Shown: positions 1 to 24,575 of the stretch, piece after piece
Numbering within the stretch: the first letter of the stretch is position 1
Layout of the letters: every line of letters begins with the position of its first letter
Source of the DNA: Lysobacter oculi
GTDB lineage: Bacteria; Pseudomonadota; Gammaproteobacteria; Xanthomonadales; Xanthomonadaceae
NCBI RefSeq assembly: GCF_003293695.1
Contig: NZ_CP029556.1
Location: 506,001-570,000 of the forward strand
Direction: 5' to 3'
Length of the DNA stretch: 64,000 bases
Notes under the pieces: generated by a model
Database searches by the model: none
What the model was told of the DNA's origin: nothing
What the model saw: only the letters and a program-made list of their open reading frames with translations
Position numbers and translations under genes: made by a program

Positions 1-18
1 ATTGGACAAGGAGAAGAA

Positions 19-318
19 ATGAAGAGCTTCGCCGAACGACTGCGCGAGGATCGCCGCCTGGTGATGCTGCGCATCCTGGCCGAGCAGCCCGGCTACCGGG
101 CCAACAGCTCGATCATGCACGCCGGCCTGCAGCACCTGGGCGTGGTGGCCAGCCGCGACGACGTGCGCACCGATGCGCACTGGCTGCGTGACCAGGGGCT
201 GATCTCGATCACCGAGGCGGCGCCCGGCATCGAGGTGTACGCGCTGGCCAGCCGCGGCTCCGAGGTTGCCGACGGCCATTGCCTGGTCCCCGGCGTGAGC
301 CGGCCGAGCCCGAAGTAA
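19..318 (+). CDS. VpaChn25_0724-family phage protein (winged-helix-like)
   Basis: A 99-residue protein opening with FAERLREDRRLVMLRIL, then a short basic-acidic core resembling a small winged helix. This matches a family found just before DUF3486 in Mu-like phages. The start is preceded by a strong AAGGAGAAGAA ribosome site. It ends 4 bases before the DUF3486 gene, so the two are probably co-translated. The molecular role of the family is not established; DNA binding is an inference from the helical N-terminus and position next to the terminase genes. Confidence 0.75.
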   Translation: MKSFAERLREDRRLVMLRILAEQPGYRANSSIMHAGLQHLGVVASRDDVRTDAHWLRDQGLISITEAAPGIEVYALASRGSEVADGHCLVPGVSRPSPK

Positions 319-322
319 GGCG

Positions 323-886
323 ATGGCCAGGAAGCGCCACGCCCGGTCCAAGATCAGCCGCCTGCCGGCCGAGCAGCGTGCCTACATCGAGCGCCTGCTG
401 CGGGAGGACCAGCTGGGCTTGGACGAGATGCTGGAGGCGATCCGCGCCCAGTTCCCGGGTGAGCCCGCCGCGGAGATCTCGCGGACCGGGCTGGGGCGCT
501 ACAGCAAGGGCGTGCGCGAGCTGGGCGAGCGCATGCGCGAGATCGAGGCCGCGTCCAACGTACTGGTGGGTGAATTCGGCGAATCGATCGGCGACAAGGC
601 GGGCGATCTGCTTTCCCAGGCGGTGGTCACCCTGACCGCCAACGCCGCGCTGCGCGCCCAGGAGCAGGACGAGATCGACATCGACACCATCCGCAAGCTG
701 GCGATCGCGGCCAAGAACTCGATCGACACGAAGCGGATCAGCGTCAATGTGCGCAAGGCCATCCGCGCAGAGGCCCGCGAGGAGCTGTTGCGCGAACAGC
801 GCGAGAAGCTTGACGCCGAGGCCAAGGAAGCCGGTGCCGGCGGCCTGACCATCGAGAAGGTCCGGGCAGTACTCGGGATCGGCTGA
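323..886 (+). CDS. DUF3486 family protein (Mu gp27-like)
   Basis: 187 residues. The N-terminus (ARKRHARSKISRLPAEQR) is basic and followed by a short helix-turn-helix-like stretch around residues 10-60, as in DUF3486 proteins next to the Mu-type large terminase. The rest is highly charged and probably helical. By position it is a candidate small-terminase or packaging accessory protein, though this function is inferred rather than shown for the family. Its TGA overlaps the terminase ATG by one base (886), indicating translational coupling. Confidence 0.8.
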   Translation: MARKRHARSKISRLPAEQRAYIERLLREDQLGLDEMLEAIRAQFPGEPAAEISRTGLGRYSKGVRELGERMREIEAASNVLVGEFGESIGDKAGDLLSQAVVTLTANAALRAQEQDEIDIDTIRKLAIAAKNSIDTKRISVNVRKAIRAEAREELLREQREKLDAEAKEAGAGGLTIEKVRAVLGIG

Positions 887-2304
887 TGGGCAACGCCAAG
901 ATCATCCCGGCCAACCGCGACGCGCTCTTCCTGCCGTTCCAGGCGAAGTGGGTGGAGGACACCAGCCGCCTGAAGCTGATGGAGAAGTCGCGCCAGATCG
1001 GCATCAGCTGGTCGACAGCCTATGCCGCGGTCGAGCGCACGGCCGCCCAGGGCGCCCGGCGTGACCAGTGGGTGTCGAGCCGCGATGACCTGCAGGCGCG
1101 GCTTTTCGTGGAGGACTGCAAGCTCTTCGCCAAGATCCTCGACATGGCCGCCGAGGATCTCGGCGAGCAGGTGATCGACAAGGACAGCAAGCAGACGGCA
1201 TACGTGCTGCGCTTCGCCAACGACCGCCGCATCCACAGCATGTCCAGCAACCCAGACGCCCAGGCGGGCAAGCGCGGTGGCCGCGTGCTGGACGAATTCG
1301 CGCTGCACCCGGATCCGCGCAAGCTGTGGTCCATCGCTTACCCCGGCATCACCTGGGGCGGCAACATGGAGGTGATCTCCACCCACCGCGGCAGCCACAA
1401 CTTCTTCAACCAGTTGATCCGCGAGGTAGTGGAGAGCGGCAACCCGAAGAAGATCAGCCATCACCGCGTCACGCTCCAGGACGCGCTCGACCAAGGCTTC
1501 CTGTGGAAGCTGCAGCAGTCGCTGCCGGCCGACGACGAGCGCCAGGAGATGGACGAGGCGGCCTATTTCAGCTGGGTACGGGCTGGGGCGGCCGACGAGG
1601 AGTCGTTCCAGCAGGAGTACATGTGCAACCCGGCCGACGACGACGCGGCTTTCCTGGAATACGACCTGATCGGCGCGGCGGAATACCCGCGCGAGTTCGA
1701 CTGGACGGCGATCGAGGGCCGCAACCTCTACGTGGGCATCGACATCGGCCGCACCAGCGACCTGACCGTGATCTGGGTGCTTGAGCGCCTGGGCGACGTG
1801 CTCTACACGCGCCACGTCGAGCGCATGCACAAGATGCGGAAGTCGGAGCAGGAGAAGATCCTGTGGCCGTGGATCGAGCGCTGCAACCGCAGCTGCTGGG
1901 ACAAGACGGGCCTCGGTATCGGCTGGGTGGACGACGCCCAGGACAAGTTCGGCGAATACCGCGTAGAGGGGGTGACTTTCACCGCTGCCACCAAGGAGGC
2001 CCTGGCTTACCCAGTGCGCAGCGCGATGGAGGACCGGAAGCTCCGCATCCCGCATGACCCGAAGATCCGCGCCGACCTGCGCATGGTCACCAAGCAGGTG
2101 ACGGCGGCCGGCAACGTGCGCTTCACCGCCGAGCGCACCGTCAACGGCCACGCCGACCACTTCTGGGCGCTGGCTCTCGCCCTGCACGCGGCCGGCGCCG
2201 ATGCCGGTCCGATCGACTACCGGCGGGTCCGCCTGGACGACAACGACATCCACCGCGACATCCGCATCGGTGCGGGCTGGCGCTCGAAGAAAGGTATCTG
2301 GTGA
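886..2304 (+). CDS. Phage terminase large subunit, Mu gp28-like
   Basis: 472 residues. The N-terminal ATPase shows a Walker A-like loop EKSRQIGIS near residue 35 and a Walker B segment GGRVLDEFA near residue 135. The C-terminal RNase H-like nuclease begins at YVGIDIGRTSDLT, with a further acidic site at HADHFWALALALH. It would power DNA translocation into the prohead and cut the packaged DNA. In Mu-type phages packaging starts in phage DNA near one end and continues into flanking host DNA. Its stop overlaps the portal start by four bases. Confidence 0.92.
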   Translation: MGNAKIIPANRDALFLPFQAKWVEDTSRLKLMEKSRQIGISWSTAYAAVERTAAQGARRDQWVSSRDDLQARLFVEDCKLFAKILDMAAEDLGEQVIDKDSKQTAYVLRFANDRRIHSMSSNPDAQAGKRGGRVLDEFALHPDPRKLWSIAYPGITWGGNMEVISTHRGSHNFFNQLIREVVESGNPKKISHHRVTLQDALDQGFLWKLQQSLPADDERQEMDEAAYFSWVRAGAADEESFQQEYMCNPADDDAAFLEYDLIGAAEYPREFDWTAIEGRNLYVGIDIGRTSDLTVIWVLERLGDVLYTRHVERMHKMRKSEQEKILWPWIERCNRSCWDKTGLGIGWVDDAQDKFGEYRVEGVTFTAATKEALAYPVRSAMEDRKLRIPHDPKIRADLRMVTKQVTAAGNVRFTAERTVNGHADHFWALALALHAAGADAGPIDYRRVRLDDNDIHRDIRIGAGWRSKKGIW

Positions 2305-3929
2305 TGGCGACGAAAACCTCACGCATCCTCGGCCCTGACGGCCAGCCCATCACCTATGACGTGCTCGAGGAGGAGATCTCGCGCGGCGGCATGACCGGTA
2401 TCCGCCAGATCTGGACCGGCAGCGTCGCCAACAACCTGACGCCGCAGCGGCTGGCCACTGTGCTGTCGGGAGCCACCGACGGCAGCCCCGAGGACTACCT
2501 GACGCTCGCCGAGGAGATGGAAGAGCGCGACATGCACTACGCCTCGGTGTTGGGCACGCGCCGCCTGGCGCTGGCCGGCCTCGAGATCCGCGTCGACGCG
2601 TACAGCGACGCCGCCGAGGACGTGAAGCTGGCCGACGCCATTCGCGAGCTGGTGGCGGACCCGATGTTCTACGAGGCGGTGTTCGACCTGACCGATGCAT
2701 TCGGCAAGGGCTACGCCGCCGCCGAGATCGTCTGGGATCGCACGGCCAAGCCGTGGCGGCCGGTCAAGATCATCCATCGCGACCCGCGCTTCTTCCGCTA
2801 CGACCGCGAAACCGGCCAGGAGCTGCGCCTGCTCGATGACACGGCGCCGGTGGATGGCCTGGCACTGCCGCCCTACAAGTTCATCGTGCACCGGCCCCGG
2901 ATCCGCACGGGCCTACCGATCCGTGGTGGCCTCGCGCGCCTCGCGGCCCCGGCCTACATGTGCAAGGCCTGGAGCTGGAAGGACTGGATGGCCTTTGCCG
3001 ACGTATTCGGCATGCCGATGCGCGTGGGCACCTATGGGCAGAACGCCTCTGACGGCGAGATCGCCAAGCTGATGTCGGCGGTCGCCAACCTGGGCAGCGA
3101 CGCGGCGGCGGTCATCGCCGAGGGCACCAAGATCGAATTCCAGGCCGCGCCCAACACCGCCGGCGCCGCGGACTTCTTCGAGCGCCTGGCCAACTTCTGG
3201 GACAAGCAGGTCAGCAAGGGCATCCTCGGCCAGACGATGACGGCCGACGACGGCTCCTCGATGAGCCAGGCCAAGGTGCACAACGAGGTCCGCGGGGATC
3301 TGTTGAAGGCCGATGCGAAGGCACTTCAAGCCACCCTCAACCGCGATCTGATCCGGCCGTTCGTGGATCTCAACTACGGCCACGGACGCTACCCGACGCT
3401 GGTGGTTCCGGTACCGGACGACGAGGATCTCAAGCTGATGCTCGATGCCCTGGAACGCCTGGTGCCGATGGGGCTGGAGGTCGAGCAGTCGGTGGTGCGA
3501 GACAAGTTCGGGATCCCGGACCCCGCCGAGGGCCAGGGCGTCAAGCTGCTGCGCGCACCGGATCAGCCGGCTGCGGTTGATGTGGCGCCGCCGGCGGTCA
3601 AGGCGCCCGAATTGCCGCCGGCGAAGGTGGTACCGATCCAGCGTGCGCGCAACGACGAGATGCCGCCGCAGCCGGCGCCGGAGTATCTGGACGGTGTGCT
3701 CGCCCAGGTGGCCGTGCGGGCGGACGGCATCACCGAAGGCTGGATGCAGCAGATCCGCGAGCGGGTGATGAACTGCGAGAGCTACGACGAGCTGCTGCTG
3801 CGACTGGGCGAACTCCAGGGCGAGCTCGACATCAACGACCTTGGCGACCTGCTGGCCGACGCATCCGCGCTGGCCAACCGCGCCGGCATTGATGATGCGG
3901 GCGGCGAGGGCGGGGACGTCCATGCCTGA
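2301..3929 (+). CDS. DUF935 portal protein, Mu gp29-like
   Basis: 542 residues, matching the DUF935 portal family: an N-terminal ITYDVLEEEISRGGMTG-type segment, a central mixed domain with KIIHRDPRFFRYD, and a long C-terminal region rich in Ala and Pro. The portal forms the dodecameric ring at the head vertex through which DNA enters and to which the tail joins. It lies between terminase and the F-like head protein, as in Mu. The stop (3927-3929) is overlapped by the next gene, which starts at 3922. Confidence 0.92.
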   Translation: MMATKTSRILGPDGQPITYDVLEEEISRGGMTGIRQIWTGSVANNLTPQRLATVLSGATDGSPEDYLTLAEEMEERDMHYASVLGTRRLALAGLEIRVDAYSDAAEDVKLADAIRELVADPMFYEAVFDLTDAFGKGYAAAEIVWDRTAKPWRPVKIIHRDPRFFRYDRETGQELRLLDDTAPVDGLALPPYKFIVHRPRIRTGLPIRGGLARLAAPAYMCKAWSWKDWMAFADVFGMPMRVGTYGQNASDGEIAKLMSAVANLGSDAAAVIAEGTKIEFQAAPNTAGAADFFERLANFWDKQVSKGILGQTMTADDGSSMSQAKVHNEVRGDLLKADAKALQATLNRDLIRPFVDLNYGHGRYPTLVVPVPDDEDLKLMLDALERLVPMGLEVEQSVVRDKFGIPDPAEGQGVKLLRAPDQPAAVDVAPPAVKAPELPPAKVVPIQRARNDEMPPQPAPEYLDGVLAQVAVRADGITEGWMQQIRERVMNCESYDELLLRLGELQGELDINDLGDLLADASALANRAGIDDAGGEGGDVHA

Positions 3930-5148
3930 ATTGCGCCTCGCGTTCCAGCCGTTCCCGGCGCAGGAGGCGTACTTCCGGCGCAAGATCAACTACCCGTCGG
4001 CACGCTGGGATGATCTGCGGCATGGCGACCACGCGCATGGCTTCATGGTCGCGGGCCTGACACGTCTCGATGTACTCGATGACGTCCGTCAGGCGGTCCA
4101 GGAGGCGATCAGCGAGGGCGAAACCCTTGAGGATTTCCGCAAGCGCTTCGACGCGGCGGTGGCCGGCAAGTGGTCTGGCTTTACCGGCGACGGCACACCG
4201 AAGGGGCGCGCCTGGCGCACGCGCATCATCTACCAGACCAACCTGCGCACCAGCTACATGGCGGGGCGCTGGGAGACGCTGAAGAACTTCCCGTACCTGC
4301 GCTACCAGCACAACACGCTTGCCAACCCCCGCGAGGACCACAAGGCGTGGAATGGCCGGATCATCGCCACCAGCGACCCGTGGTGGGATACGCATTACCC
4401 GCCGAATGGCTGGGGATGCCGCTGCACGGTGACAGGCGTTTCAGAGGCGCGGCTGCGTGCGCTGCGCGGCGACGCCGGTGCCGATGGCGCGCCGGGTTTT
4501 TCTGAGCGCGACGAGCCGCCGCCGGAATGGGCGTACCACGTCGGCAAGCAGGCTCGCTCGATGGCGGCCGCCGAGCAGTTCGGCAAGAAGGTCATGGGGC
4601 TGCCGCCGGACTGGCGGAAGATCGCGCTGGATGATGCGCAGCGGCGCCAAGTCGATTGGATGGCGGACTGGCCGGGCTTTATTGCCGAGACAGCGTCGAG
4701 CCACCATTCCGTGGGCGCGGCCACGCCTGTTGGCTTCATCTCCGACGACGTGCTCCAGGCATTGGCGGCCCCAGTGGAGCGGCGGCATACAACTACACCC
4801 GGCCTGCAGCCGGTGAGCGCATTGCTCGCCATGACCGATCGGCAGCTGGTTCACGCGATGCGTGAGGCGAAAGGCGAAGAACTGCCGTTGATCTTGCTGG
4901 CGCTTCAGGAGCTGCAGTCCTGGATCTATACCCCGTCGACCCGGGTGTATCGCCAAGCCTCACCCGACAACCTGGTCTATGCGCGTCCGCTCGATGATGG
5001 GCGCTATGTGGCCGTCTACGTGCGCATCGATACGCAGCCAGCCAGGATGCCGCCGGTGGGCCGCATTGCCAGCAATTGGGTGATCACCGCGGCTGTGCGC
5101 ACGCCTCAGCAGATGGCGGATTACGCACTGCTCAAGGGTGGGGAATGA
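3922..5148 (+). CDS. Head morphogenesis protein, Mu gp30 (F)/SPP1 gp7-like
   Basis: 408 residues from the ATG at 3922, chosen because it overlaps the portal stop in the usual coupled arrangement and begins at the family start (MPELRLAFQPFPAQEAYF). The Mu-F core includes the conserved WNGR...WWDTHYPPNGWGCRC segment around residues 140-175. The last ~120 residues (from about ASSHHSVGAA) form a separate domain ending VYVRIDTQPARMPP...ASNWVITAAVRTPQQM. This resembles the RelE/Barnase-like nuclease-fold domains (PBECR type) that often end such proteins; this part is a tentative assignment. Confidence 0.88.
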   Translation: MPELRLAFQPFPAQEAYFRRKINYPSARWDDLRHGDHAHGFMVAGLTRLDVLDDVRQAVQEAISEGETLEDFRKRFDAAVAGKWSGFTGDGTPKGRAWRTRIIYQTNLRTSYMAGRWETLKNFPYLRYQHNTLANPREDHKAWNGRIIATSDPWWDTHYPPNGWGCRCTVTGVSEARLRALRGDAGADGAPGFSERDEPPPEWAYHVGKQARSMAAAEQFGKKVMGLPPDWRKIALDDAQRRQVDWMADWPGFIAETASSHHSVGAATPVGFISDDVLQALAAPVERRHTTTPGLQPVSALLAMTDRQLVHAMREAKGEELPLILLALQELQSWIYTPSTRVYRQASPDNLVYARPLDDGRYVAVYVRIDTQPARMPPVGRIASNWVITAAVRTPQQMADYALLKGGE

Positions 5149-5151
5149 AAC

Positions 5152-5233
5152 GGCCCGGGGTGGGATTCGAACCCACACTAACAGGTGGTTTGGCACCACC
5201 CTCCCAGCTGCCTGAAGTGGTCTCTACCGGGCC
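5152..5233 (-). ncRNA. tRNA-like element inside the prophage head operon
   Basis: On the minus strand the 82 bases start GGCCCGG and end CCGGGCC, giving a 7-bp acceptor-like stem. Next to the 3' end is a canonical T arm (GTGGG, TTCGAAT loop, CCCAC). A GGTGG/CCACC stem encloses a TGCCAAA loop in the anticodon position; read in register this gives CCA, but base 33 is G instead of T. The 5' part between acceptor and anticodon stem is about ten bases too long for a normal D arm, and no CCA tail is encoded. It fills the gap between the gp30-like and G-like genes, antisense to them. It may be a degenerate tRNA or a tRNA mimic. Confidence 0.5.
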
Positions 5234-5248
5234 TGAGCGGACCATACC

Positions 5249-5815
5249 ATGACCGACACCATCCTGATCCAGGTCGAGGCTGAACGCGCTGAGCGTTGGT
5301 TCGGCGAGCTGCTGCGGCGTAGCGCGGACCTGACCGGCCTGATGGCCGACATAGGTGAAACGCTCCTGGAAAGCACGCAGGCGCGATTTACAACCGGCAT
5401 CGCCCCTGATGGCACTGTCTGGGCGCCGCTGCGGGATGGCAGCGGCCGTACGCCGCTCCTGGACACCGGCACCATGCGCGACCAGATTTACCCGAGCCAC
5501 GGCAGCACGTGGGTGGAGCTGAGCGCCACGGCCAAGCAGGCCCGCTGGCACCAGGAGGGCACGGATGGTCCCTATGTCATCGAGCCCAAGAACGGCAAGG
5601 CGCTGGCGTTCGGCGCCCGGGCCACGCATCTATCCGGGCCGGGACGCGGGAAAGAAGGGCCGGTGAATGCCCGCGAAGGTGCCGCGCACGTAGTGAAGAA
5701 GGTGACCCACCCAGGATTGCCGGCGCGTCCGTTCATGGGCCTGTCCGCCGCGGACGAAGAGGCCATCGATACCTTGGCGCAGAGCTGGCTGGATCTGACC
5801 CCGGCGGGCGGCTGA
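5249..5815 (+). CDS. Phage virion morphogenesis protein, Mu G-like
   Basis: 188 residues, with the family pattern of an N-terminal helix, a RFTTGIAPDGTVWAPL core and a C-terminal PARPFMGLSAADEEAI segment. Members of this family act in late head or head-tail assembly of Mu-like phages, and the exact step differs between phages. It follows the tRNA-like element and is the last head gene before the 252-aa/HEPN insert. The following 225 bases carry no gene but include the attC half-site. Confidence 0.85.
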   Translation: MTDTILIQVEAERAERWFGELLRRSADLTGLMADIGETLLESTQARFTTGIAPDGTVWAPLRDGSGRTPLLDTGTMRDQIYPSHGSTWVELSATAKQARWHQEGTDGPYVIEPKNGKALAFGARATHLSGPGRGKEGPVNAREGAAHVVKKVTHPGLPARPFMGLSAADEEAIDTLAQSWLDLTPAGG

Positions 5816-6005
5816 GGGGCAAGCGCGTGGGAGCGCCTGTGCGGGCCTCCAGGCCCTGGGGAGCAACCAGCGGAGCCGGGGCGGGGTGCTCGGGGCGCCT
5901 GGAGCGATTTAAACGGGTTTAAAACGGTGACGGGCGGCAGGGAGGGGGTCAGGGGGTGTGTGCTACTGTTCGCCACATGTAGCCACTCGGCCTGTTCAGG
6001 TTCGA

Positions 6006-6025
6006 CGGCTTAACTCAGGCGTTAG
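6006..6025 (+). repeat. Integron attC half-site (R'/L') relic within the prophage
   Basis: The 20 bases CGGCTTAACTCAGGCGTTAG are identical to the right half (L' plus R' core) of many attC sites in the integron 18 kb away, for example 27317-27336 read on the minus strand. Orientation relative to the next gene (start 6041) is exactly that of a cassette gene following an attC. The bases upstream (about 5985-6004) can pair only weakly with it, so a complete attC is not evident. Confidence 0.75.
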
Positions 6026-6040
6026 CTAGGAAGGCATGGC

Positions 6041-6799
6041 ATGAACGGGCGTCCTCAGCCTGCTTCGCACGATCTTATTGATCAGCTTAATCGTGTGCGA
6101 CAGCTCCGAAATGATGAGCGGGAGCTCCCACTCAGGCAGTTGGAATTCACATCACAGCGAGTCCGGAGCTCGGACCGCGCAGCCTACCTGTTCCTGCAGG
6201 CGGGCATCGCGTCGCTGCGTGATGACGTGGATGCGATTGATGTTGCGCGCGATCAGTTGAGAAAAGAGTTTCCCGACCACGCCATTGCGCAAGCCAACGT
6301 GGCCAAGGCTTACCTGTGTGCGCGCCAGCCGGAACGTGTTCTCGACCAGCTCTCGTATCTATTCGCGGAGCGTGCCGTCGGGTGGGACATCTACGAGGCG
6401 CTTTCAATCTTGGTGCCACTCGGTCTCATAGACGATCTCCAGCGTTTTCTGGGTGACTCTTTGCTTGAGCACTCCAGCTCGAACTCGGAACGAGGGATGC
6501 TTGAAAAGCTCGTAGATGACGTGCAGAAGTACGAGATCAACCCAGCTGATTTCAGCAAGGTCTTCATGGCTTGTACGGATGTGCTGCGCGCTCATGGCTG
6601 GGACTCTGCCGTGATTTCTGTCGACAACGGTCCGCGCTGTGCTGAGCGCGGCATGCCTGTTGCTACGCTGCAATTCGGGATCGAGGCGGAGCCTGAAGCG
6701 ATGCTCGATCTTGAAGACGAGATGATCGATACCCTGATCCGGGAAGAAGTCGGCGCGTTCGTCAATGGCCATATCAACGTCCAGATGAGCTACGTCTGA
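6041..6799 (+). CDS. Uncharacterised 252-aa protein, partner of the HEPN-like gene
   Basis: I do not recognise the family. The first ~150 residues are helical with alternating small and large residues (for example AAYLFLQAGIASLRD and AIAQANVAKAYLCARQPE), suggesting TPR-like repeats. The last ~70 residues look like a mixed alpha/beta unit with an acidic stretch near DLEDEMIDT. Composition is less GC-rich than the flanking phage genes. TGA and the next ATG overlap (6797-6801), so it is translationally coupled to the HEPN-like gene. An attC half-site lies 15 bases upstream. An antitoxin or sensor role for the partner is inference only. Confidence 0.6.
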   Translation: MNGRPQPASHDLIDQLNRVRQLRNDERELPLRQLEFTSQRVRSSDRAAYLFLQAGIASLRDDVDAIDVARDQLRKEFPDHAIAQANVAKAYLCARQPERVLDQLSYLFAERAVGWDIYEALSILVPLGLIDDLQRFLGDSLLEHSSSNSERGMLEKLVDDVQKYEINPADFSKVFMACTDVLRAHGWDSAVISVDNGPRCAERGMPVATLQFGIEAEPEAMLDLEDEMIDTLIREEVGAFVNGHINVQMSYV

Positions 6800-7215
6800 T
6801 GGCTGTCAGTCCGGCGGAGTTTCGAGAAGCGGCAAACGAGGGCATCACCCCGACTGCAACCCAGTTAGCTCGGCGCACAGCTGTCAATCGTGCCTACTAT
6901 GCGGCGTTCCATTCACTTGGCGCCAAACTGCAGTGCATGGCTGACCCGGGCACGCTGGGAGACATGGGTTGTGTCACGCACGGCTTCATCCCGTATGCCT
7001 TGCGGACTTTTGCTGCCAAATATCCGGACAAGCGTCAACGCATGGCAAAGGGTGCAGAGGCGCTGAAGATGGTGAACCATTACGAGTCGATCATGTCGGC
7101 GCGTCATTTGGCTGACTACGACACTACTAGCTCTGGTGACTATGATCCGCGCATGGTTGTACTTCACCTGGGACGTGTGGATCGGTTGTTAAAGTTCGCA
7201 GCGTCTATCAAATAG
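6799..7215 (+). CDS. HEPN-like domain protein (possible ribonuclease toxin or effector)
   Basis: 138 residues. Near the N-terminus RTAVNRAYYAAFHSLG contains R31 and H38 separated by six residues, the Rx4-6H signature of HEPN ribonucleases, inside the RAYYAAFH helix typical of the superfamily. The C-terminal ARHLADYD helix is also common in HEPN proteins. It is coupled to the 252-aa gene upstream and followed by a strong terminator, so the pair is a self-contained unit within the phage operon. HEPN proteins often act as toxins or abortive-infection effectors. That role here is inferred, and inactive HEPN scaffolds also exist. Confidence 0.65.
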   Translation: MAVSPAEFREAANEGITPTATQLARRTAVNRAYYAAFHSLGAKLQCMADPGTLGDMGCVTHGFIPYALRTFAAKYPDKRQRMAKGAEALKMVNHYESIMSARHLADYDTTSSGDYDPRMVVLHLGRVDRLLKFAASIK

Positions 7216-7221
7216 ATCTGA

Positions 7222-7250
7222 AAGCCCCGCCCAGCGCGGGGCTTCTGCTT
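7222..7250 (+). terminator. Rho-independent terminator after the HEPN-like gene
   Basis: A 9-bp GC-rich stem (7222-7230 with 7236-7244) and 5-base loop are followed by a T-rich tail. It separates the two-gene insert from the protease gene starting at 7307. Confidence 0.8.
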
Positions 7251-7306
7251 TCTAGAGTGGCGCGCGCCACTCCCAAGCGATCCCGCGCGACCCCGACGAT
7301 GGGTCC

Positions 7307-8308
7307 ATGCCGCGCATCGCCCTCAACGCCGAATTGACCCTCGAGAATGGCCAAGCCCCCGAATGGGTCGAGGTCATTCCCGCGCCGGACGCTGACGGCT
7401 ACGTCGCCGGCCGCGATGGCCGTCGCTGGCGGTGGGACGCCGAAGCGCAGAACTCCGTCATGGCCGCCTTCAACGAGCGCGGCATCGAGCTGGTCATGGA
7501 CTGGGAGCACGCCACGCAGCGTCGCGCCCAGAACGGCGATGACGCGCCAGCCGCCGCCTGGCATCCCGAGTTGGAGATCCGCGATGGCGCCTTGCTGGCC
7601 CGCACCAACTGGACGCCGCGTGCCAAGGCGCAGGTGGAGAACCGCGAATACCGCTTCCTGTCCCCCGTCTTCGACTACGCCAAGGACACGCTCCGCATCG
7701 TGCGGATGGTGAGCGTAGGGCTCACCAACACCCCGAACCTGCGCCTGCAAGCGCTCAACTCCGAAGAGGAAACCGCAATGAACCGTTCCGCCATGCTGGC
7801 AGCGGCGATCTCGGCCGTGCTCGGCCTGGGTGCCGACGCCACCGATGACGCGATCGCCCAAGGCATCAACAAGATGCAGGACGATCTCAAGACCGCCCAA
7901 GCCGCCAACGGCGAGCAGCCCTCGCTGGACCGTTACGTGCCGCGTGGCGACTACGACAACCTGGTGACGCGCGCCCAGAACGCCGAGCAGGCGCTCAAGG
8001 ACCGCGATACGGCCGACCACAAGAAGGCCGTGGACGACGCGATCGACGGCGCCCTCAAGGCCGGCAAGATCACGCCCGCCACCGAGGACTACCACCGCGC
8101 TGCCTGCAGCGATGCCGAAGGCCTGGAGCGCTTCAAGGCGTTCGTGGGCGCGGCGGTCGCCGTCGGTGATGACACCAAGCTGGGTGGCCGCAAGCCGGCC
8201 GGTCAGTCCACCGCCCTCAACGCCGAGCAGAAGGACGCGTGCCGCCTGCTGGGCATTTCCGAAGCCGATTTCATCGCCGAACTCGACGGCGACAAGGAGA
8301 CCAAGTAA
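7307..8308 (+). CDS. Phage prohead protease/scaffold, Mu I-like
   Basis: 333 residues. The N-terminal half matches Mu I-type proteases, with ELVMDWEHATQRR (candidate catalytic His) and EYRFLSPVFDY (candidate catalytic Ser region). The C-terminal half is charged, helical scaffold ending in DKETK. Mu-type phages make the protease and, from an in-frame internal start, the scaffold alone; such a start is visible at 7778. The enzyme would cleave scaffold and head proteins in the prohead. The stop overlaps the capsid ATG by one base. Confidence 0.88.
   Translation: MPRIALNAELTLENGQAPEWVEVIPAPDADGYVAGRDGRRWRWDAEAQNSVMAAFNERGIELVMDWEHATQRRAQNGDDAPAAAWHPELEIRDGALLARTNWTPRAKAQVENREYRFLSPVFDYAKDTLRIVRMVSVGLTNTPNLRLQALNSEEETAMNRSAMLAAAISAVLGLGADATDDAIAQGINKMQDDLKTAQAANGEQPSLDRYVPRGDYDNLVTRAQNAEQALKDRDTADHKKAVDDAIDGALKAGKITPATEDYHRAACSDAEGLERFKAFVGAAVAVGDDTKLGGRKPAGQSTALNAEQKDACRLLGISEADFIAELDGDKETK
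7778..8308 (+). CDS. Internal in-frame scaffold product (Mu Z-like)
   Basis: An ATG at 7778 lies in the protease frame and is preceded at 7763-7770 by GAAGAGGA, a good ribosome site. It would give a 176-residue protein (MNRSAMLAAAISAVLG...) consisting only of the helical scaffold part, the arrangement known for Mu I/Z. Use of this start is inferred from position and ribosome-site quality. Confidence 0.6.
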   Translation: MNRSAMLAAAISAVLGLGADATDDAIAQGINKMQDDLKTAQAANGEQPSLDRYVPRGDYDNLVTRAQNAEQALKDRDTADHKKAVDDAIDGALKAGKITPATEDYHRAACSDAEGLERFKAFVGAAVAVGDDTKLGGRKPAGQSTALNAEQKDACRLLGISEADFIAELDGDKETK

Positions 8309-9219
8309 TGGCCCTCGTGACCCATGCGCTCGTCCAGGCGCTGTTCGTCGGCTTCCGCCGCGAGTTCCAGCAGGCCCTGGGCGCCACCCCGAGCGACTAC
8401 TTGAAGGTCGCCACGGTGGTGCCGAGCACCACCAAGAGCAATACCTACGGCTGGCTGGGCCAGTTTCCGAAGTTCCGCGAGTGGATCGGCAACCGCACGA
8501 TCAACTCGATGAAGGAACACGGCTATTCCCTGGTCAACAAGGACTGGGAGTCGACCGTCGGCGTCAAGCGCACCGACATCGAGGACGACGAAGTCGGCGT
8601 CTACAACCCGCTGTTCCAGGAAATGGGCCGCGCCGCCGCGTCGCACCCGGATGAGCTGGTGTTCCCGCTGCTGAAAGTCGGCCACACGACCCTGTGTTTC
8701 GACGGCCAGAACTACTTCGACACCGATCACCCGGTGTACGCCAATGTCGATGGCACCGGTGCCGTGACCACGGTGGCCAACTCGGATATCGACCTGGTCG
8801 GCTGTGCGGGCAACCCGATCTGGTACCTGATGGACACCAGTCGCGCGATCAAGCCGGTGATCTACCAGGAGCGCAAGAAGCCGGTCCTGCTGATGCGCAG
8901 CGGTGACAAGGACGAGAACGTCTTCACCCGCAACGAGATCGAGTTCGGCGCGGACATGCGCTCGAACGTGGGCTTCGGCTTCTGGCAGATGGCCTATGCC
9001 AGCAACCAGCCGCTGACGGCCGCCAACTACGCCGCCGCCCGCGCCGCCATGCAGTCGTTCAAGGGCGACGGTGGCCGCCCGCTGGGGGTCCGCCCGAATC
9101 TGCTGGTGGTTCCGCCTGCCTTGGAAGGCGCGGCGCGCAAGCTGCTCGTCAAGGACGAGAACGGCGGCAACGAATGGGGTGGCAGCGCCGAGCTGGTCAC
9201 CACCTCCTGGCTGGCCTGA
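8308..9219 (+). CDS. Major capsid protein, Mu T-like
   Basis: 303 residues from the ATG at 8308, selected because AAGGAGA (8294-8300) precedes it and translation starts at the family N-terminus MALVTHALVQALFVGFRR. Motifs typical of Mu T-like major head subunits are present, including TYGWLGQFPKFREW, CFDGQNYFDTDHPV and LLVVPPALEGAARKLL. It builds the icosahedral shell. A 12-bp hairpin 10 bases after the stop probably limits read-through, consistent with the need for high capsid expression. Confidence 0.92.
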   Translation: MALVTHALVQALFVGFRREFQQALGATPSDYLKVATVVPSTTKSNTYGWLGQFPKFREWIGNRTINSMKEHGYSLVNKDWESTVGVKRTDIEDDEVGVYNPLFQEMGRAAASHPDELVFPLLKVGHTTLCFDGQNYFDTDHPVYANVDGTGAVTTVANSDIDLVGCAGNPIWYLMDTSRAIKPVIYQERKKPVLLMRSGDKDENVFTRNEIEFGADMRSNVGFGFWQMAYASNQPLTAANYAAARAAMQSFKGDGGRPLGVRPNLLVVPPALEGAARKLLVKDENGGNEWGGSAELVTTSWLA

Positions 9220-9229
9220 TCCACCTAAT

Positions 9230-9258
9230 GCGAAGCCGGCGCCTGTCGCCGGCTTCGC
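9230..9258 (+). terminator. Intercistronic hairpin after the capsid gene
   Basis: A perfect 12-bp stem (9230-9241 with 9247-9258) with a 5-base loop and no T tract. It may act as a partial terminator or stabilise the capsid mRNA 3' end. Confidence 0.6.
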
Positions 9259-9269
9259 TGGAGCCTGAT

Positions 9270-9647
9270 ATGTCGAACAAACCCATCGCCGATGGCCTGG
9301 CCGCTCAAGCCATCATCGTCCAGACCAAGACCGCAGAAAAGTTCTTCCGTGCCGGCCGCCAATTCGGTCGTGAGCCGGTAGAGATCGCGGTCTCCGAACT
9401 GACCGACGCCGAGTTCGAAGCAATCGCGAATGAGCCGAACCTGCTGGTGGCATTCGTGGCCGAGGACAACGAGGCCGCACGCAAGGCCTCCGCCGAAGCG
9501 GCTGCAGCCGAGAAGGCCTCCGCCGAAGCGGCTGCAGCCGAGAAGGCCGCCGCCGAGAAGGCCGCTGCCGAGAAGGCCGCTGCCGAGAAGGCCGCCGCTG
9601 CCGAGAAGGCCGCCGCTGCCGGCAAGAAGGCGGACGCGAAGAAGTAA
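9270..9647 (+). CDS. Mu gp35-like protein with Ala/Glu/Lys repeat tail
   Basis: 125 residues from the ATG at 9270 (MSNKPIADGLAAQAI), which starts after the hairpin; an upstream in-frame ATG would overlap the capsid gene. The first ~65 residues match the small gp35-like proteins after the Mu capsid (HI1506-type), with KFFRAGRQFGREPVEI and SELTDAEFEAIANEP. The remaining half is low-complexity A/E/K, encoded by two identical 30-bp units (9486-9515 and 9516-9545) followed by shorter AEKAA units. The tail may be a charged helix; function is unknown. Confidence 0.75.
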   Translation: MSNKPIADGLAAQAIIVQTKTAEKFFRAGRQFGREPVEIAVSELTDAEFEAIANEPNLLVAFVAEDNEAARKASAEAAAAEKASAEAAAAEKAAAEKAAAEKAAAEKAAAAEKAAAAGKKADAKK

Positions 9648-9650
9648 CCG

Positions 9651-10157
9651 ATGGTTTACCTCGCGCCCGCGCAGTTGATCGATGGCCCGGAGAGCTTGAA
9701 TGAGCTCTCCGAGCTGTTCGGCGTGCTACCGGCGTTGCTGAAGGCAGCGATCGCTGGCGAGAACCTGTCGGGGTGGGATGCCGAAGACCAGCTCTCGGCG
9801 CTCGAAGCCCTGCAGGCGATCGATGACCGCATCGTCCAGGCGACCGCCGAGGTTGATGTGAGGTTGGCCAAGCGCGGCTACGTGCTCCCGCTGGACCCGG
9901 CTCACTTCCCCGTCCTGGTTACCTGGACCCGCGCGATCGCGCGTTACCACCTGCACCCGCAGCGCGAGGGGACGACCGAAACCACGGGGCGCATCGAGCG
10001 CGACTACCGCGACGCCATCCGCGCGCTTGACCAGATCGCCGATGGCAAGCTGTCGCTCGGCGCCAATGACCCGACGCTAGCGCAAGACGAGAACGCCGGC
10101 GCCCAGGTGATCAGCAACCCGCGTCGCTTCAGCCGCGATTCGCTGGGTGGCCTGTGA
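9651..10157 (+). CDS. DUF1320 protein (Mu gp36-like)
   Basis: 168 residues matching DUF1320: N-terminal TAQ-type start (VYLAPAQLID), central IDDRIVQATAEVDVRLAKRGY and PVLVTWTRAIARYHLHP. Proteins at this position are candidate head-completion or connector proteins. The stop overlaps the GTG start of the next gene. Confidence 0.85.
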   Translation: MVYLAPAQLIDGPESLNELSELFGVLPALLKAAIAGENLSGWDAEDQLSALEALQAIDDRIVQATAEVDVRLAKRGYVLPLDPAHFPVLVTWTRAIARYHLHPQREGTTETTGRIERDYRDAIRALDQIADGKLSLGANDPTLAQDENAGAQVISNPRRFSRDSLGGL

Positions 10158-10606
10158 GCGTCTTGGCATTCCCGGTGGCAGACGTCATCGCGCGCCTGGC
10201 CGCCAAGGTGCCGCTGGCCAAGACCGTAGGTGCGGCTGCTGACCTGCAGGCGGTGCTCAAGACCCCGCCGAGCGTCAAGGTCGCGCTGTATGTGCTGGCC
10301 TTCGATCGCGGTGGCGAGATCAAGTATTCCGGCCCCAACGTGTCCGTGCAGAACGTCAACACGCAGCTGCAGGTGGTCCTGTTGGTCCGGCATTCCGCGG
10401 GCGAGCGCGTGGGCGCGGGTGCGCGCAAGTTGGCTGATGACGTGATCGCCCAGGTGCGCGGCGCACTCGTGGGCTGGGCGCCAGCCGATGCCTTCGAAGC
10501 GATCAGCTTCCGCGCCGGCCGCGACGACAACTACTTGGCCGGTTGGTACGCCGGCCAGCAGGTATTCGACACCGCCTTTCGCATCCACAACGAGGTGCTG
10601 CCATGA
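10154..10606 (+). CDS. Gp37-like / DUF1834 protein (probable tail terminator or connector)
   Basis: 150 residues starting from GTG at 10154, which overlaps the DUF1320 stop. The fold pattern (GAAADLQAVLKTPPSVKVALYVLAF, then NVSVQNVNTQLQVVLLVRH, ending HNEVLP) fits the Gp37 family of Mu-like phages. By position it links head completion to the tail. ATGA overlap with the following small gene. Confidence 0.78.
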   Translation: MSVLAFPVADVIARLAAKVPLAKTVGAAADLQAVLKTPPSVKVALYVLAFDRGGEIKYSGPNVSVQNVNTQLQVVLLVRHSAGERVGAGARKLADDVIAQVRGALVGWAPADAFEAISFRAGRDDNYLAGWYAGQQVFDTAFRIHNEVLP

Positions 10607-10797
10607 GCAACCCGACCCCGACCCGCCACGGCAACTGGCACATGGTCAACGGCCAGCTGGTCGACCTGGACGCCGCGCCGGCGCCGGCCGCAGCGCCTGA
10701 AGCCGCCCCCGAATCCCGCGACGACGAAACCGACCCGGAGGCCGAACGGCCCGCCGGCCGGATGTTCCGCCGCCGCACCACTTCCATCAAGGAGTAA
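10603..10797 (+). CDS. Small acidic protein before the tail tube gene
   Basis: 64 residues from the ATG at 10603, which overlaps the previous stop (ATGA). It begins SNPTPTRHGNWHMVNGQLV, continues with an Ala/Pro/Glu-rich middle and ends in a basic MFRRRTTS segment. It occupies the place of the small gp38/DUF2635 gene of Mu-like phages but I see no clear sequence match. Function unknown. Confidence 0.6.
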   Translation: MSNPTPTRHGNWHMVNGQLVDLDAAPAPAAAPEAAPESRDDETDPEAERPAGRMFRRRTTSIKE

Positions 10798-10800
10798 GTC

Positions 10801-11781
10801 ATGGCCCAGCCGAACCTGGAATCCTTCAAGCGCCGCGCCCTGGCACTCGCCTTGCGCGTCACCGCTGATACAGCCGTGGTGCCGACCGCCGCCGCCAACG
10901 GCGTGATGCTGTTCAACGGCAGCTCCGGCACCGAGTTCGACAAGGTCGAGCGCCCGGTGGACCGCCCGCACTTCACCAGCGACCCGTTCGTGGTCGGCTT
11001 GAAGCGCGCCTTCATCGAAGGCGAGTTCGAGCTCTATCCGCCGGCCACGCCGGGTGCGGCCGCCACCAGCGATGCCGACTGCGGCGTCCTGCTGCTGCCC
11101 GCTGGCATGACCGCGGTGAAGGATGCCGTGGCCAAGACCACCCGCTACAACCCGATCAGCCAGGGCATCCCGCTGTCGGATGCCTACTTCTGGCATGCCG
11201 GCACCCTCAAGAAGGTCGAGGCCGCCCGCCACAACGTCAGCCGCCTCTCCCTGGCGGTAGGCGATCGCTTCAAGGGCCAGATCCGCGTGCAGGGCACCTA
11301 CGACAACGTCGAGGCCCAGGCATTGCCGGCCATCACGGTGCCGGGCGTGGTGCCCACCGTGGCCCGTGCCGAGAACACCGAGACCACGCTGAAGCTGCTG
11401 CCCGGCGGCGCCGACCTGGTGGTCTGGGCGAAGTCCCTGCAGGTCGATTTCAACAACTCGATCAAGACCAAGGAATACACCTCGCACGAGGAAACCGGCA
11501 TCGATGACCGCAAGGCGACCTGGTCGCTGCGCTTGGCCAAGACCGACCTCGCCGAGTTCAACCCCTGGACCGTGCGCGACGCCGGCACGCTGATCACCGC
11601 CACGTTGCGCCTGACCGAAGCCGCGAACAAGTACAGCGAGCTGGGCATCCGCGGCCAGATCGAGCAGATCAACGAAGTCGACATCGACGGCGATTACGGC
11701 TGGGAACTGTCCGGTCCGTGCATCGCCAGCGATGCCGGCGGCGACGAGTTCTACATCGAGTTCGGCGACACCACGCCGTAA
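10801..11781 (+). CDS. Phage tail tube protein (siphovirus type)
   Basis: 326 residues. The pattern is of a beta-rich tail tube protein with hydrophobic strands and loops (FNGSSGTEFDKVERPVDRP, LSLAVGDRFKGQIRVQGTY, ATWSLRLAKTDLAEFNPWTV). No tail sheath gene is present, and the next genes are a frameshifted chaperone pair and tape measure, so the tail is long and non-contractile. It would polymerise into the tube through which DNA passes. A hairpin follows at 11825-11852. Confidence 0.8.
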   Translation: MAQPNLESFKRRALALALRVTADTAVVPTAAANGVMLFNGSSGTEFDKVERPVDRPHFTSDPFVVGLKRAFIEGEFELYPPATPGAAATSDADCGVLLLPAGMTAVKDAVAKTTRYNPISQGIPLSDAYFWHAGTLKKVEAARHNVSRLSLAVGDRFKGQIRVQGTYDNVEAQALPAITVPGVVPTVARAENTETTLKLLPGGADLVVWAKSLQVDFNNSIKTKEYTSHEETGIDDRKATWSLRLAKTDLAEFNPWTVRDAGTLITATLRLTEAANKYSELGIRGQIEQINEVDIDGDYGWELSGPCIASDAGGDEFYIEFGDTTP

Positions 11782-11824
11782 CGGATTGACGCGAGAGCGA
11801 GCAGGCCCGGCACACCAAGGCCAT

Positions 11825-11852
11825 GCCTTCACCTGGTGCCGCAGGTGAAGGC
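11825..11852 (+). terminator. Intercistronic hairpin after the tail tube gene
   Basis: An 11-bp perfect stem (11825-11835 with 11842-11852) and 6-base loop in the 110-base gap after the tail tube gene, without a T tract. Together with the hairpin after the capsid gene it suggests partial termination after the two structural genes needed in highest copy. Confidence 0.6.
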
Positions 11853-11891
11853 GCTTCACACCCACTTAAAACCCGATTCGAGGAAGCCCAC

Positions 11892-12245
11892 ATGTTCCAG
11901 CTCAAGAAGGTCAACACCATCCTCCACCCTTGCCGTCTGCGGCAGGCCAACGAAGACGGCAGCGTCAACGAGGCCACGTTGCGAGTGCGTTTCAACGTCA
12001 TCGATCGCGCCGAGCTGGACCGCATGGCCAACGCGGAAGACGACGACGATCGGCTGATATACGACGTGGTGGTCAACAAGATCGAGGACGACGTGCAGGG
12101 CGCCGATGGCGAGAAGCTGGGCGAGGACGATGCCCGTGCCGCCATCCGCAACGACCTGTCCCTGTCGGCACAGATCGTCGGCCAGTTCTGGGAGCTGATG
12201 AGCGGGGCTGCCGCAAAAAACGCGAAACGCTCGCGCGGGCGCTGA
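11892..12245 (+). CDS. Tail assembly chaperone, short form (G-like)
   Basis: 117 residues from the ATG at 11892 (MFQLKKVNTILHP), preceded by GAGGAAG. It lies between tail tube and tape measure genes, the standard position for the tail chaperone. Near its 3' end the codons GCA AAA AAC contain the heptamer A AAA AAC, a classical -1 slippery site, after which the zero frame stops 24 bases on. Chaperones of this kind bind the tape measure and recruit tail tube subunits. Family assignment rests on position and frameshift rather than on strong sequence motifs. Confidence 0.75.
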   Translation: MFQLKKVNTILHPCRLRQANEDGSVNEATLRVRFNVIDRAELDRMANAEDDDDRLIYDVVVNKIEDDVQGADGEKLGEDDARAAIRNDLSLSAQIVGQFWELMSGAAAKNAKRSRGR

Positions 12246-12598
12246 CCCTCGGTCAGATCCCGCCCAGCGCCGACCGCCCGGTGCTGGACGACGAGCAAGA
12301 CCTCACCGCCGCTGAGTTCCTCGCCATCGGCACAGAGCAGGCCGGCGATACCACCAACGAGATCGAGCTGGAGGTGTTGGAAGAAAACTGGGTGGCCACG
12401 CACGTCTTCATGCGTTGCTCCCCGCAGTACATCGCCGGCGGCATGGCGGCCCCGATGGCCACCGGCATCACCGCCACTGAGGCGATGGCCGCCATCACCG
12501 GGATGCGAATCGACCTGGAAGCGCATCCCGACACCTTCGACCAGGTCATCGACATGGGGCGCCACGCGGCCCAGGCGTTGAACGAAAGGAACCGATGA
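11892..12598 (+). CDS. Tail assembly chaperone, frameshift fusion (GT-like)
   Basis: Expected product of a -1 shift at 12215-12221: 110 codons of the short form followed by 125 residues (RETLARALTLGQIPPS... to LNERNR), about 235 residues in all. The second part contains AAMAPMATGITATEAMAAITGM-like helical sequence and resembles short DUF1799-type chaperone extensions. It has no good start of its own near the junction. The stop overlaps the tape measure ATG (12595). In lambda the ratio of the two forms is critical for tail assembly. Confidence 0.75.
12215..12221 (+). other. Programmed -1 ribosomal frameshift site (A AAA AAC)
   Basis: In the reading frame of the short chaperone, codons GCA AAA AAC present X XXY YYZ. 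Slipping back one base enters the frame CGC GAA ACG CTC..., which stays open to 12598. This matches the lambda G/GT arrangement of long-tailed phages. Confidence 0.85.
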
Positions 12599-15500
12599 GC
12601 GAGCAAACCGTCACCCTGCGAATCGTCGGCGAGAACGGCCAACTGGTGGCGGCCGTGCGGACCTCGAACGCGGAGCTGGGCAAGCTCGGTGCCCAGGCGC
12701 GCGACACCGGCAACCAGGCGGCGGCCGGTGCGCGCCAGGTGCGCGGCATTGGTGACGCAGCCCAGCGCACTGAGCGTCAGGTCAACACCCTGCGCGGTTC
12801 CTTGGGCGGTCTGAAGACGATGCTGGCCGGCGTGGTGGGCGTGCAGACGATCCGCCAGCTGGCTGGCATGGCTGACAGCTACAGCGACATCATCGGCAAG
12901 CTGCGGCAGACGGCGGGCAGCGAGCGCGAGCTGGCCCAGGCCAAGGCGGACACCTTCCGCATCGCCCAGCAGACATATCAGCAGCTCGACGCGACGGTCA
13001 CCCTCTACAGCCGCGCCTACGGTGCGCTCAAGCAGTACGGCGTGGGGCAACAGCAGGTGGCCGCGCTGACCGAAACGGTCAACCGTGGCCTGCTGGTCTC
13101 ACGCGCTACGGCGGCCGAATCGGCCAGCGCCATCCTGCAGCTCTCCCAGGCAATGGGCGCTGGCGCGCTCCGCGGTGAGGAATTCAATGCGGTCAACGAG
13201 GCCGCCCCACGGCTGATGCAACTGCTGGCGAATTCGATGGGCGTCACGCGTGGCGCACTCAAGAAACTGGCCGAGGACGGCAAGCTGACCGTCGATGTTC
13301 TGCTGAAGGCGTTCACCGGGCCACAGGCCAAGAAGCTGGCCGAGGAAGCGGCCGCCGTACCGCTGACTATGAGCCGCGCGTGGGTGCAGTTCAAGAACGA
13401 AGCACTGAAGGCCATTGGTGAGGTTGATCAGGCGCAGGGTGCGTCGGCGCAGATTGCGGCTGTCATCGGCGGGCTGGCCAAGAACATCGACATGCTGATC
13501 AAGGTCGGGGCTGCCCTGGCGGTGATATACATGGGGCGCGTGGTAGGCGCGTTTGTCGCGGCCACGGCAGCTGCGGTCAAAAAGACAATCGCTACCGTTG
13601 CCGGCGCAGTAGCAGAGCGGCGAGCGGCAGCAGCAGCAGTTGAAGCGGCGCAAGCGCAGTTGCGCTATGCACAAGTGACTGGCGGGGCGGCGGCGGCATC
13701 AACAGCACTTGCTGCCGCCCAGGGGAGATTGGCTGCAGCCACGGCGGCTTCGCGCGCAGCAATCGCTGGGCTTGGCAGCGGGATGCTGGCTTTCGTGGGT
13801 GGCCCGGTGGGCGCGATATTGATCGCACTTGGCTTGGTTGTCGGCAAGCTTATGGCAGTTAAGACGGCGGCTGATGCTGCCTACAGCAGCATAGGGAGTG
13901 TGGTTGAAAACGCTGCGTATGCACGCGAGTCGATGGATCGCAAAGCGCTGAACCAGTCCAACACCGAACTGAAAGAAACACGCAGCGCTCTTCTAAAGGA
14001 GCGCGAAAGGTTGAACTCTCTGCAGCGGCAGGGCGGTGGCATCAACTTGTTTCCAAAGGAGGGCGAAAACTTCGTGGTCACGCCCAGCGAAGTACGCGCT
14101 CGTCTCGCGAAGAACGCGCGTGCGCTTGCGACGGTTGATTCACAGCTTGAATCCAACTGGGACAAGATTTTCACCAACGTGCTTGACATAGGGTTGGAGA
14201 AAAAACCCGCTGAACTCGACATCCCGACCACGGACACGAAGACGCCGAAGCCGAAAAAGGTGAAGGACGACGCAAAGCAGCGCCTGGAGGACATGAAGAA
14301 CTGGCGCGAAGAGGCTGCCCGCGCCGCCGCGACGATGGAGGGACCGCTCAAGGAGGCTGAGGTCAAGCGTGACCAGCGTCTGGCCGAGCTGTCTGATGCG
14401 CTGGGCAAGGGTCGTATCGAGCAGGCCGCCTACAACACCCTGGTCAAGGATGCGAAGCGCGTCTATGAGGAAGAGACCGAGGCCGCGCGCAAGGCCAACG
14501 AAGAAATCAAGCGCCGCCAGGGCGCACCCGAAAAAATGCTCGCCGACATGGAGCGCGAGCGCCAGCTGATCGGCCTCACGGGCCGCGAGCGCGAGATCGC
14601 CAACGAAGAGCTGCGCGCCGAGGAAGAGCTGCGCCGCGCGATTGATGACGCCCGCGACGCAGGCCGCAAGTTCAGCGAGCAGGAAGTCCAGGATCTTGAG
14701 AACGAAGCTCGCGCCCGCGGGCGCGCGCTCGTGGTGATGCGCGAGCAGACCGATCTGGCCGAGCGCTACCGGGAGCAGTGGCGCGGCGCCATCACCAGCG
14801 TGGCCGATGCCTGGGGGCAGTGGTTTGCCAACGGGTTCCGCAACACGAAGGATTTTCTGTCGCAGACGCGCGACGCGTTCAAGCGATGGATCGCCGACAT
14901 GGGTGCCATGTTCGCCAAGGCCCAGCTGGGCAAGTGGCTGCAGGTGGATCTCGGCGCCGGCACCGGTGGCTGGGGCAGCCTGGTCGGCGGTCAGGGTGGC
15001 GGCTCGGGTGGTTGGATGGAAGGCCTGCAGCGCATGTTTGGTGCCTATCAGCAGGCGCGCGGCAATGGCGGCGGCTTCTGGCAGTCGGTACTCGGTGCGA
15101 TCACGGGCCGGGGGGGCGGCAGTGGATTCGGCGGCTCTGCCGGCACGGACAATTGGGGCTCGATGGCGAGCATGGCCAGGCAGATGGCCGGCCTGGTTGG
15201 TGCGGTCGGTGGCGCGAGCCGCGGTTCGTTCGGAACGCTGGGCGCCATCGGCGGAGCAGATACGTTCGGCACGGGAAACGGAGCTGGGGGTGGTGGCGCG
15301 CTCGGTTCGCTCGGGCAGATCGGCGGAGTGGTCCTCAACAAGGGCACGATGTCGAAGTTCCTCACCTCGTCCGCTGCGCCCTGGTTGGGTGCGGCCGCCG
15401 GCGCGTACTACGGCTGGCAGAAGGGTGGCGACACGCCCGGCAAGGTGATGGGCGCGGCGGCCTATGGCGCAGTGGGTTACAGCGCGATGGTGGCCGGTGG

Positions 15501-22677: not shown

Positions 22678-22681
22678 CGGA

Positions 22682-23461: not shown

Positions 23462-23603
23462 GAACAGGGCGACGGCCAGGCACCGGCAAGTGCCCAGCCG
23501 CCGCCATCACCAACGCGTCTTGACCGCGTGATTCTGGCCTTGGCCCTGCTGCTCCCGCGAGAGCAGGGTCAGTCTGGCCAACACCCATCGCACGAGTTGA
23601 GAC

Positions 23604-23995: not shown

Positions 23996-24060
23996 GGGGC
24001 TATCGTAGGCGCCCTCAGAAAGGGTGTCATTTGGCAGGCTGTGAAGGGTGATAGACGGCG

Positions 24061-24503: not shown

Positions 24504-24575
24504 GAAGCGTCGAGTGCAAATGACGCGAAAGACCAGCAGAAAGGCGAGTGGTTATATGCGTTTCGCTTTTCTGCG

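Follow-up and report, generated by a model that had tools for sequence, protein, structure and literature searches.

Phages that carry integron material have already been described. According to Qi et al. 2023 (PMC9892861), integrons or their components occur in 21 phages, IntI1 recombined five of six attC sites from virulent phages, a Vibrio prophage is bounded by attC sites of the chromosomal integron, and one phage-borne array includes a toxin-antitoxin operon. A second route, the insertion of cassettes outside integrons at attG sites, is credited to Loot et al. 2024 in PMC12444791, which also cites works on chromosomal integrons as stores of anti-phage genes.

The locus analyzed here lies in a 64,000-base stretch of DNA (the window), positions 506001-570000 of a host genome made up of one contig of 2,592,821 bases. 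A first interpretation made from the letters alone (the sequence-only reading) had noted half of an attC site within a prophage and proposed that the phage captured a gene pair from an integron. It considered such transport of cassettes by phages hardly described, a view that does not hold given what Qi et al. 2023 (PMC9892861) report. The locus resembles those phages in having attC sequence and putative cassette genes within a phage or prophage genome. Whereas those phages have integrons or groups of two or more attC sites, most of the tested ones functional, it contains a single half attC, located in a cargo slot; the phage is Mu-like and had itself transposed into an array. Insertion at attG would likewise place a cassette in a non-integron locus, but it should retain the attC of the cassette and leave no L'-R' half upstream, which would set it apart from the window. 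No title among the open-licence literature matches listed concerned an attC half-site in a Mu-like phage. Because carriage of attC by phages is already published, the advance is modest; the window is a modest but clean new example of integron material in a phage. Its scar represents cassette material in the cargo slot of a phage that is itself lodged in an integron array, and it suggests a testable route by which anti-phage genes leave an array and become prophage cargo.

An attC right half in a prophage within a superintegron

The sequence CGGCTTAACTCAGGCGTTAG, at window positions 6006-6025 on the + strand, matches the right (L'-R') half of the host integron's attC sites at all 20 positions. 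The features of the half-site and its setting are as follows.

6006..6025, + strand: 20-base match to the attC right half, from comparison with host attC sites
6008..6014, + strand: L' box GCTTAAC, from the sequence and checked against 107 paired attC sites
6021..6027, + strand: R' box GTTAGCT, GTTRRRY with one base off
1..24130, + strand: Mu-like prophage, right part (whole prophage at genome 492033-530130)
24131..24135, no strand: target duplication GAGTG (5 bases), with a second copy at L018:2028-2032
24136..33449, - strand: integron array, integrase-proximal part, with 16 of the 107 paired attC sites
33560..34822, + strand: integron integrase ORF, matching TIGR02249 over the whole profile, with the start chosen by the ORF lister

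The two boxes and the 6-base spacer between them have the standard attC layout, and the heptamer GTTAGCT also occurs in complete attC sites of the array (genome 475259 and 460136). The array holds 78 copies of the 20-mer at 6006-6025; the longest exact match between half-site and array is 22 bases, at one site only. Thirteen more near copies of the 20-mer at 6008-6027 (at most three mismatches) are found in the window, every one of them on the - strand at 24161-33102, and none in 100 shuffles. Across the whole host genome, the 19-mer GGCTTAACTCAGGCGTTAG is present 79 times, 78 of them on the - strand in the array; the sole + strand copy is the one in the prophage. These counts bear out the 20-base identity claimed earlier, and the cassette orientation claimed with it also holds, with the integrase on the + strand and the array attC sites read on the - strand. 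It is very improbable that the half-site is a chance match or an unrelated conserved phage motif. Chance was rejected by two controls, the 100 shuffles and a reversed pattern of the 19-mer, which scored 0 in the entries shown for 395 genomes of the family, and an unrelated phage motif is at odds with the absence of the half-site from the related phage loci examined.

A left arm (R'', L'') was found neither within 170 bases upstream (locus L089) nor by a generic attC detector. The bottom-strand folding z score of the half-site is -0.78, no better than shuffles, versus -5.61 and -3.53 for two attC sites of the array. Since the left arm is missing and the sequence does not fold, 6006-6025 is a half-site and not a working attC. 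We also considered that a left arm is hidden, or that the half-site pairs with upstream phage sequence in a hybrid hairpin; both were rejected, since folding gave nothing above the shuffle level.

Alternatively, the half-site could have been kept as a working landing pad in duplex form, at which the host integrase inserts cassettes behind a phage promoter. It lies directly 5' of the cargo, its L' and R' boxes with their 6-base spacer form two inverted IntI boxes as in an attI core, and the host has a full-length integrase. Yet the R' box is one base off GTTRRRY, the cargo has no attC of its own, and the related phages examined lack the pad, so we judge this explanation improbable. Half attC sites are not known to recombine as duplex DNA. 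On this improbable reading, a transposable phage that jumps into integron arrays would gather cassettes behind its slot promoter, candidate defence or toxin modules among them, and carry them from host to host.

The whole prophage spans 38,098 bases and is Mu-like by its domains: Portal_Mu, Phage_Mu_F, Phage_tail_S (gpG type), and Mu-like_Pro (gpI type). It is bounded at both ends by the GAGTG duplication and interrupts a repeated cassette, another copy of which, near 24541, reads ...gaaaggcgagtggttatatgcg by eye. Near-identical repeated cassettes are visible by eye at 24160-24600 and 26900-27340, the prophage lying in another copy or part of one. The array has 107 paired attC sites at genome ~440563-539190, all on the - strand, and one further fuzzy right-half match (4 mismatches) that stayed unpaired; the integrase scores 488 bits against TIGR02249, for which the cut-off is 265. 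Array attC sites are present on both flanks of the prophage; therefore, the phage transposed into the superintegron, and the Mu-like prophage sits inside it. This position was overlooked in the sequence-only reading, which placed the half-site 18 kb away from the integron. With array attC sites on both sides of the prophage, that distance understates the relation. Mu-like phages package host-DNA ends, and given the position of this prophage, the host DNA that it packages at its ends when induced would come from integron cassettes. The 107 paired attC sites belong to a genome of 2.59 Mb, and the 19-mer is found in only 3 of 17 genomes of its genus.

The insert in the gpG-gpI slot

The half-site lies between two structural genes of the phage, in a slot with these features.

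5249..5815, + strand: gpG-type gene (Phage_tail_S), left neighbour
5904..5926, + strand: shared phage block GCGATTTAAACGGGTTT..., left flank of the insert, from alignment with 10 relatives
5961..5969, + strand: possible extended -10 element TGCTACTGT, suggested by eye
7222..7244, + strand: terminator-like hairpin closing the insert, weak against shuffles
7255..7272, no strand: palindrome before gpI, right flank of the insert, also in the slot of relatives
7307..8308, + strand: gpI-type protease gene (Mu-like_Pro), right neighbour

The gpG-gpI gap measures 1,491 bases here versus about 205-458 in 25 related Mu-like phage loci, a set in which several gpI starts are extrapolated, L034/L064 and L036/L066 are pairs with identical slots, and others may be near-duplicates. 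These 25 were kept from 41 loci, the 16 dropped being the window's own locus, a duplicate, and 14 without a measurable gap, where gpG was not at the expected place or the gpI match was absent. When the two flanks in the window are joined and aligned to 10 relatives, the insert falls between the 5904-5926 block and the palindrome at 7255-7272, which is clear in L063, L066, L050, L055, L064, and L073 and imperfect in L051, L058, L062, and L038. The insert is thus ~1.2-1.3 kb long, with edges fixed to ~40 bases per side. The half-site 17-mer CTTAACTCAGGCGTTAG is absent from related loci, since the 22 of 80 loci that match it are the host genome itself or its identical IMG/VR record. A search of a phage collection with 1,601 bases gave no match, and the gpG-gpI region, searched as DNA in 17 genomes of the genus, gave only short weak matches outside its own genome. 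Given the short gaps of the relatives, their lack of the half-site, and the aligned flanks, the half-site, the two genes, and the hairpin are all located in foreign DNA. The comparison with related phages proposed in the sequence-only reading therefore came out in its favor: none of the related loci examined carries the half-site, and the insert is absent from the measurable loci.

Units of this kind between the structural genes of Mu-like phages are termed morons. The insert is missing from relatives, has an atypical composition, and ends in a terminator-like hairpin of its own, weak against shuffles. L034 and L064 share an identical slot, in which another ORF of up to 130 aa is found; thus, the gpG-gpI slot behaves as a cargo site. 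The likeness to Mu-like morons extends to the foreign, AT-richer unit, the terminator-like hairpin, and the slot between structural genes, whereas the attached attC remnant distinguishes this unit from the others. As to the terminator that had been attributed to the unit, the hairpin at 7222-7244 is there but stands out little from shuffles, a scan of the region finding 2 such sites where shuffles gave 1.1 on average. On the upstream side, TGCTACTGT resembles by eye TGCTATCG in L064 and GTGGTATGTT in L050, and this -10-like element probably belongs to the phage slot. A consensus promoter scan found none upstream of the gene pair, the element at 5961-5969 not being listed.

Two further elements were seen in this part of the prophage. 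In the palindrome before gpI, in the window and in relatives, the arms change in both halves between phages while the symmetry is kept; it may serve as a hairpin with a regulatory role or as a site for a protein. A tRNA-like fold is present at 5152-5233 on the - strand, between the gpF- and gpG-type genes. ARAGORN made no call there, the Rfam tRNA-Sec score was 24.5 against a gathering score of 47, and the related phage loci searched contained no match apart from the window's own record.

The gene pair and its cassette-like features

The insert carries a module of two overlapping genes.

6041..6799, + strand: 252-aa orphan protein, first gene of the module
6799..7215, + strand: 138-aa HEPN-type protein, with its ATG overlapping the stop codon TGA of the upstream gene

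A protein search with the 252-aa protein returned only the protein itself, and among viral contigs only the record of its own phage matched. Its structural model has a helical N-terminal part and a beta/alpha C-terminal part, predicted with low confidence (pLDDT 58.4). The 138-aa protein has relatives P0003 (61%) and P0004 (42%), both on short metagenomic contigs of 1,356 and 1,465 bases, respectively, and matches in 5 of 395 genomes of the family; its profile matches in 8 of 360 genomes of the class, its own genome being counted in both cases. Among 7,998 candidates scored, the profile search gathered 1,366 relatives, and several dozen of the 120 relatives listed carry the HEPN domain PF05168. 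The window protein itself has no Pfam match, while 3 of 9 aligned members match PF05168. It matches PADLOC HEPN_IX with an E value of 1.8e-4 and phrog_5176 with 4.4e-8. Residues invariant across 53 HEPN sequences include R26, R31, Y33, Y34, H61, R102, D106, and Y107. The confident model of this protein (pLDDT 95.6) is all-helical and resembles HEPN proteins. The best PDB match by Foldseek was 2q00, with probability 1.00 but an E value of 0.22; the HEPN-MNT complex 8xeh was among the matches (E 1.2), and no PDB match reached an E value of 0.001 or lower.

Like HEPN toxin modules (PF05168; HEPN-MNT), the pair consists of an upstream partner gene overlapped by the gene of a small all-helical protein. 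It differs from HEPN-MNT pairs in that its partner has no recognisable nucleotidyltransferase and the window protein itself lacks a Pfam match. A protein of ~250-300 aa overlaps or abuts the HEPN gene upstream in 6 of the 14 loci inspected (L026, L027, L028, L078, L079, and L080), whereas the remaining 8 have no such partner or a different neighbour; the coupled module is found in both phages and chromosomes, and its first protein matches no PADLOC family. A toxin or an abortive-infection cargo would be the likeliest function of the module.

Several features of the pair are those of a cassette. The first ORF begins at 6041, 13 bases after the R box at 6021-6027, and a similarly short spacing, no more than 18 bases, separates the R box from the longest-ORF start in 28 of the array's 48 sense ORFs with 80 aa or more. 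The cassette-like gene start that had been reported 15 bases past the half-site is therefore real, and its spacing is typical of array cassettes. The GC content of the two genes is 0.57 and 0.56, compared with 0.62-0.68 in 12 phage ORFs picked, which confirms that they are AT-richer than the surrounding phage genes; their GC3 is 0.66 and 0.61. With values for cassettes and phage computed in-sample, the codon log-odds are +0.12 and +0.24 for the pair, negative for all 12 phage ORFs, and 0.46 on average for cassettes. In GC, GC3, and codon log-odds, both genes differ from every one of the 12 phage ORFs in the direction of the cassettes, so the pair is compositionally nearer cassettes than phage genes. 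The GC content of the 252-aa gene is reached by only 8 of 54 cassette ORFs, and composition alone cannot decide a cassette origin because the values are intermediate.

A generic detector identified no 3' attC for the gene pair in 5800-7400. A decayed attC within the terminator hairpin was likewise rejected, with no detector call and no R boxes by eye. The same detector, which reported 12 sites in a region where 16 are paired, found no attC near 16 loci with relatives of the module, and a fuzzy search of 14 loci found none either; the flanks covered were mostly 1.5-4 kb long. A cassette that persists in the host array was rejected as the source of the pair: all 105 of 105 DNA alignments between the array and the insert touch the half-site and none lies outside it, and the proteins of the pair have no similarity there (best E value, 0.56). 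The expectation that the pair would turn up beside attC sites elsewhere was thus disappointed among the inspected relatives, which are more distant than the metagenomic ones. The inspectable relatives of the module have no attC in their flanks, so that a cassette past of the pair is inferred rather than shown. These relatives are ordinary chromosomal or phage genes; therefore, the pair could have come without an integron.

attC sites elsewhere and the origin of the insert

The 19-mer is widespread in the family, occurring in 162 of 395 genomes and 33 of 54 genera. Around 20 isolated copies chosen from the family places listed, the stretches contain 24 exact copies; 22 of these have a left half, one is at a contig end, and one (L119) has a left half that can be made out by eye, although its decay keeps it from passing the filter. 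Among viral contigs, 18 stretches match the 19-mer. Three are the record of the host's own genome, and the other 15 comprise 14 contigs with a complete attC and one (L098) with a half-site. The attC sequence, of the Xanthomonad type, is shared between the window half-site and the IMG/VR phages L081-L088, L090-L094, L097, and L107. The phage sites are complete hairpins, mostly inverted relative to the neighbour gene (12 of 16), whereas the window has a half-site. In the material examined, half-sites are rare, and a half-site in sense orientation with cargo is seen only in this window. L098:11660-11678 is a second phage-borne half attC, lacking the left arm and opposite to the unrelated ORFs that neighbour it.

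Two separate events could account for the insert: a piece bearing an attC, for example an older cassette or a solitary attC site of the sort found in phages, would have decayed in the slot, and the HEPN pair would have arrived later as an ordinary moron. We regard this as a serious possibility, although not the leading one. A complete attC is not rare in phages (14 of the 15 viral contigs with the 19-mer other than the host's own), L098 has a half-site between unrelated genes, the slot of L034/L064 holds another ORF, and the inspected phage and chromosomal relatives of the module have no attC in their flanks. Yet the start codon is at cassette spacing from the R box and the half-site is in sense orientation, while most attC sites in phages point away from the sense of the gene that follows; moreover, a double arrival in one short slot is less parsimonious.

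We favor, as the probable explanation, that a transposable phage captured a cassette and that a decayed remnant of this event is left. On this explanation, 6006-6025 would be an attC site of which just the right arm survives. The gpG-gpI slot of an ancestor would have taken up integron material, most likely part of the attC of the previous cassette followed by a cassette with the two-gene HEPN module, and the module would have become fixed in the phage when one attC arm and the 3' attC were subsequently lost. A pure IntI insertion leaves only TTRRRY at the left edge and no whole L'-R' half. Direct insertion by IntI in one step was rejected on this ground, and an additional deletion or an illegitimate step is needed. 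IntI may have inserted the material at a non-classical site, with a deletion afterwards, or an illegitimate recombination may have had its break within the attC hairpin. The module is probably transcribed with the phage or from the phage slot promoter and would end at its own terminator. It may act as lysogenic cargo of the toxin-antitoxin or abortive-infection type, in which the HEPN protein, a likely ribonuclease, would be partnered by the 252-aa protein. The proposal that the phage captured the gene pair from an integron is accordingly partly supported: the attC half, the cassette orientation, and the foreign insert speak for it, and the missing 3' attC and the lack of attC sites beside the relatives inspected against it.

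Orientation was compared among sites with a start-codon test, which replaced greedy ORF calling because the latter is unreliable in GC-rich DNA; the rejected greedy classes, for 18 sites, were 4 same/opposite, 3 opposite/opposite, 4 without any neighbouring gene, and the rest scattered. In the host array, the 78 sites tested included 13 sense, 3 inverted, and 62 neither. The 24 isolated chromosomal attC sites comprised 8 sense, none inverted, 14 neither, and 2 untestable. The 16 phage sites, on 15 contigs, are 12 inverted (L081, L082, L084-L087, L090-L094, and L107), with a start codon on the opposite strand 12-34 bases from the left half, 1 sense, and 3 neither. The window half-site is sense, which it has in common with chromosomal sites and which sets it apart from most attC sites tested in phages. 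The predominance of inverted attC sites in phages may be the more surprising lead.
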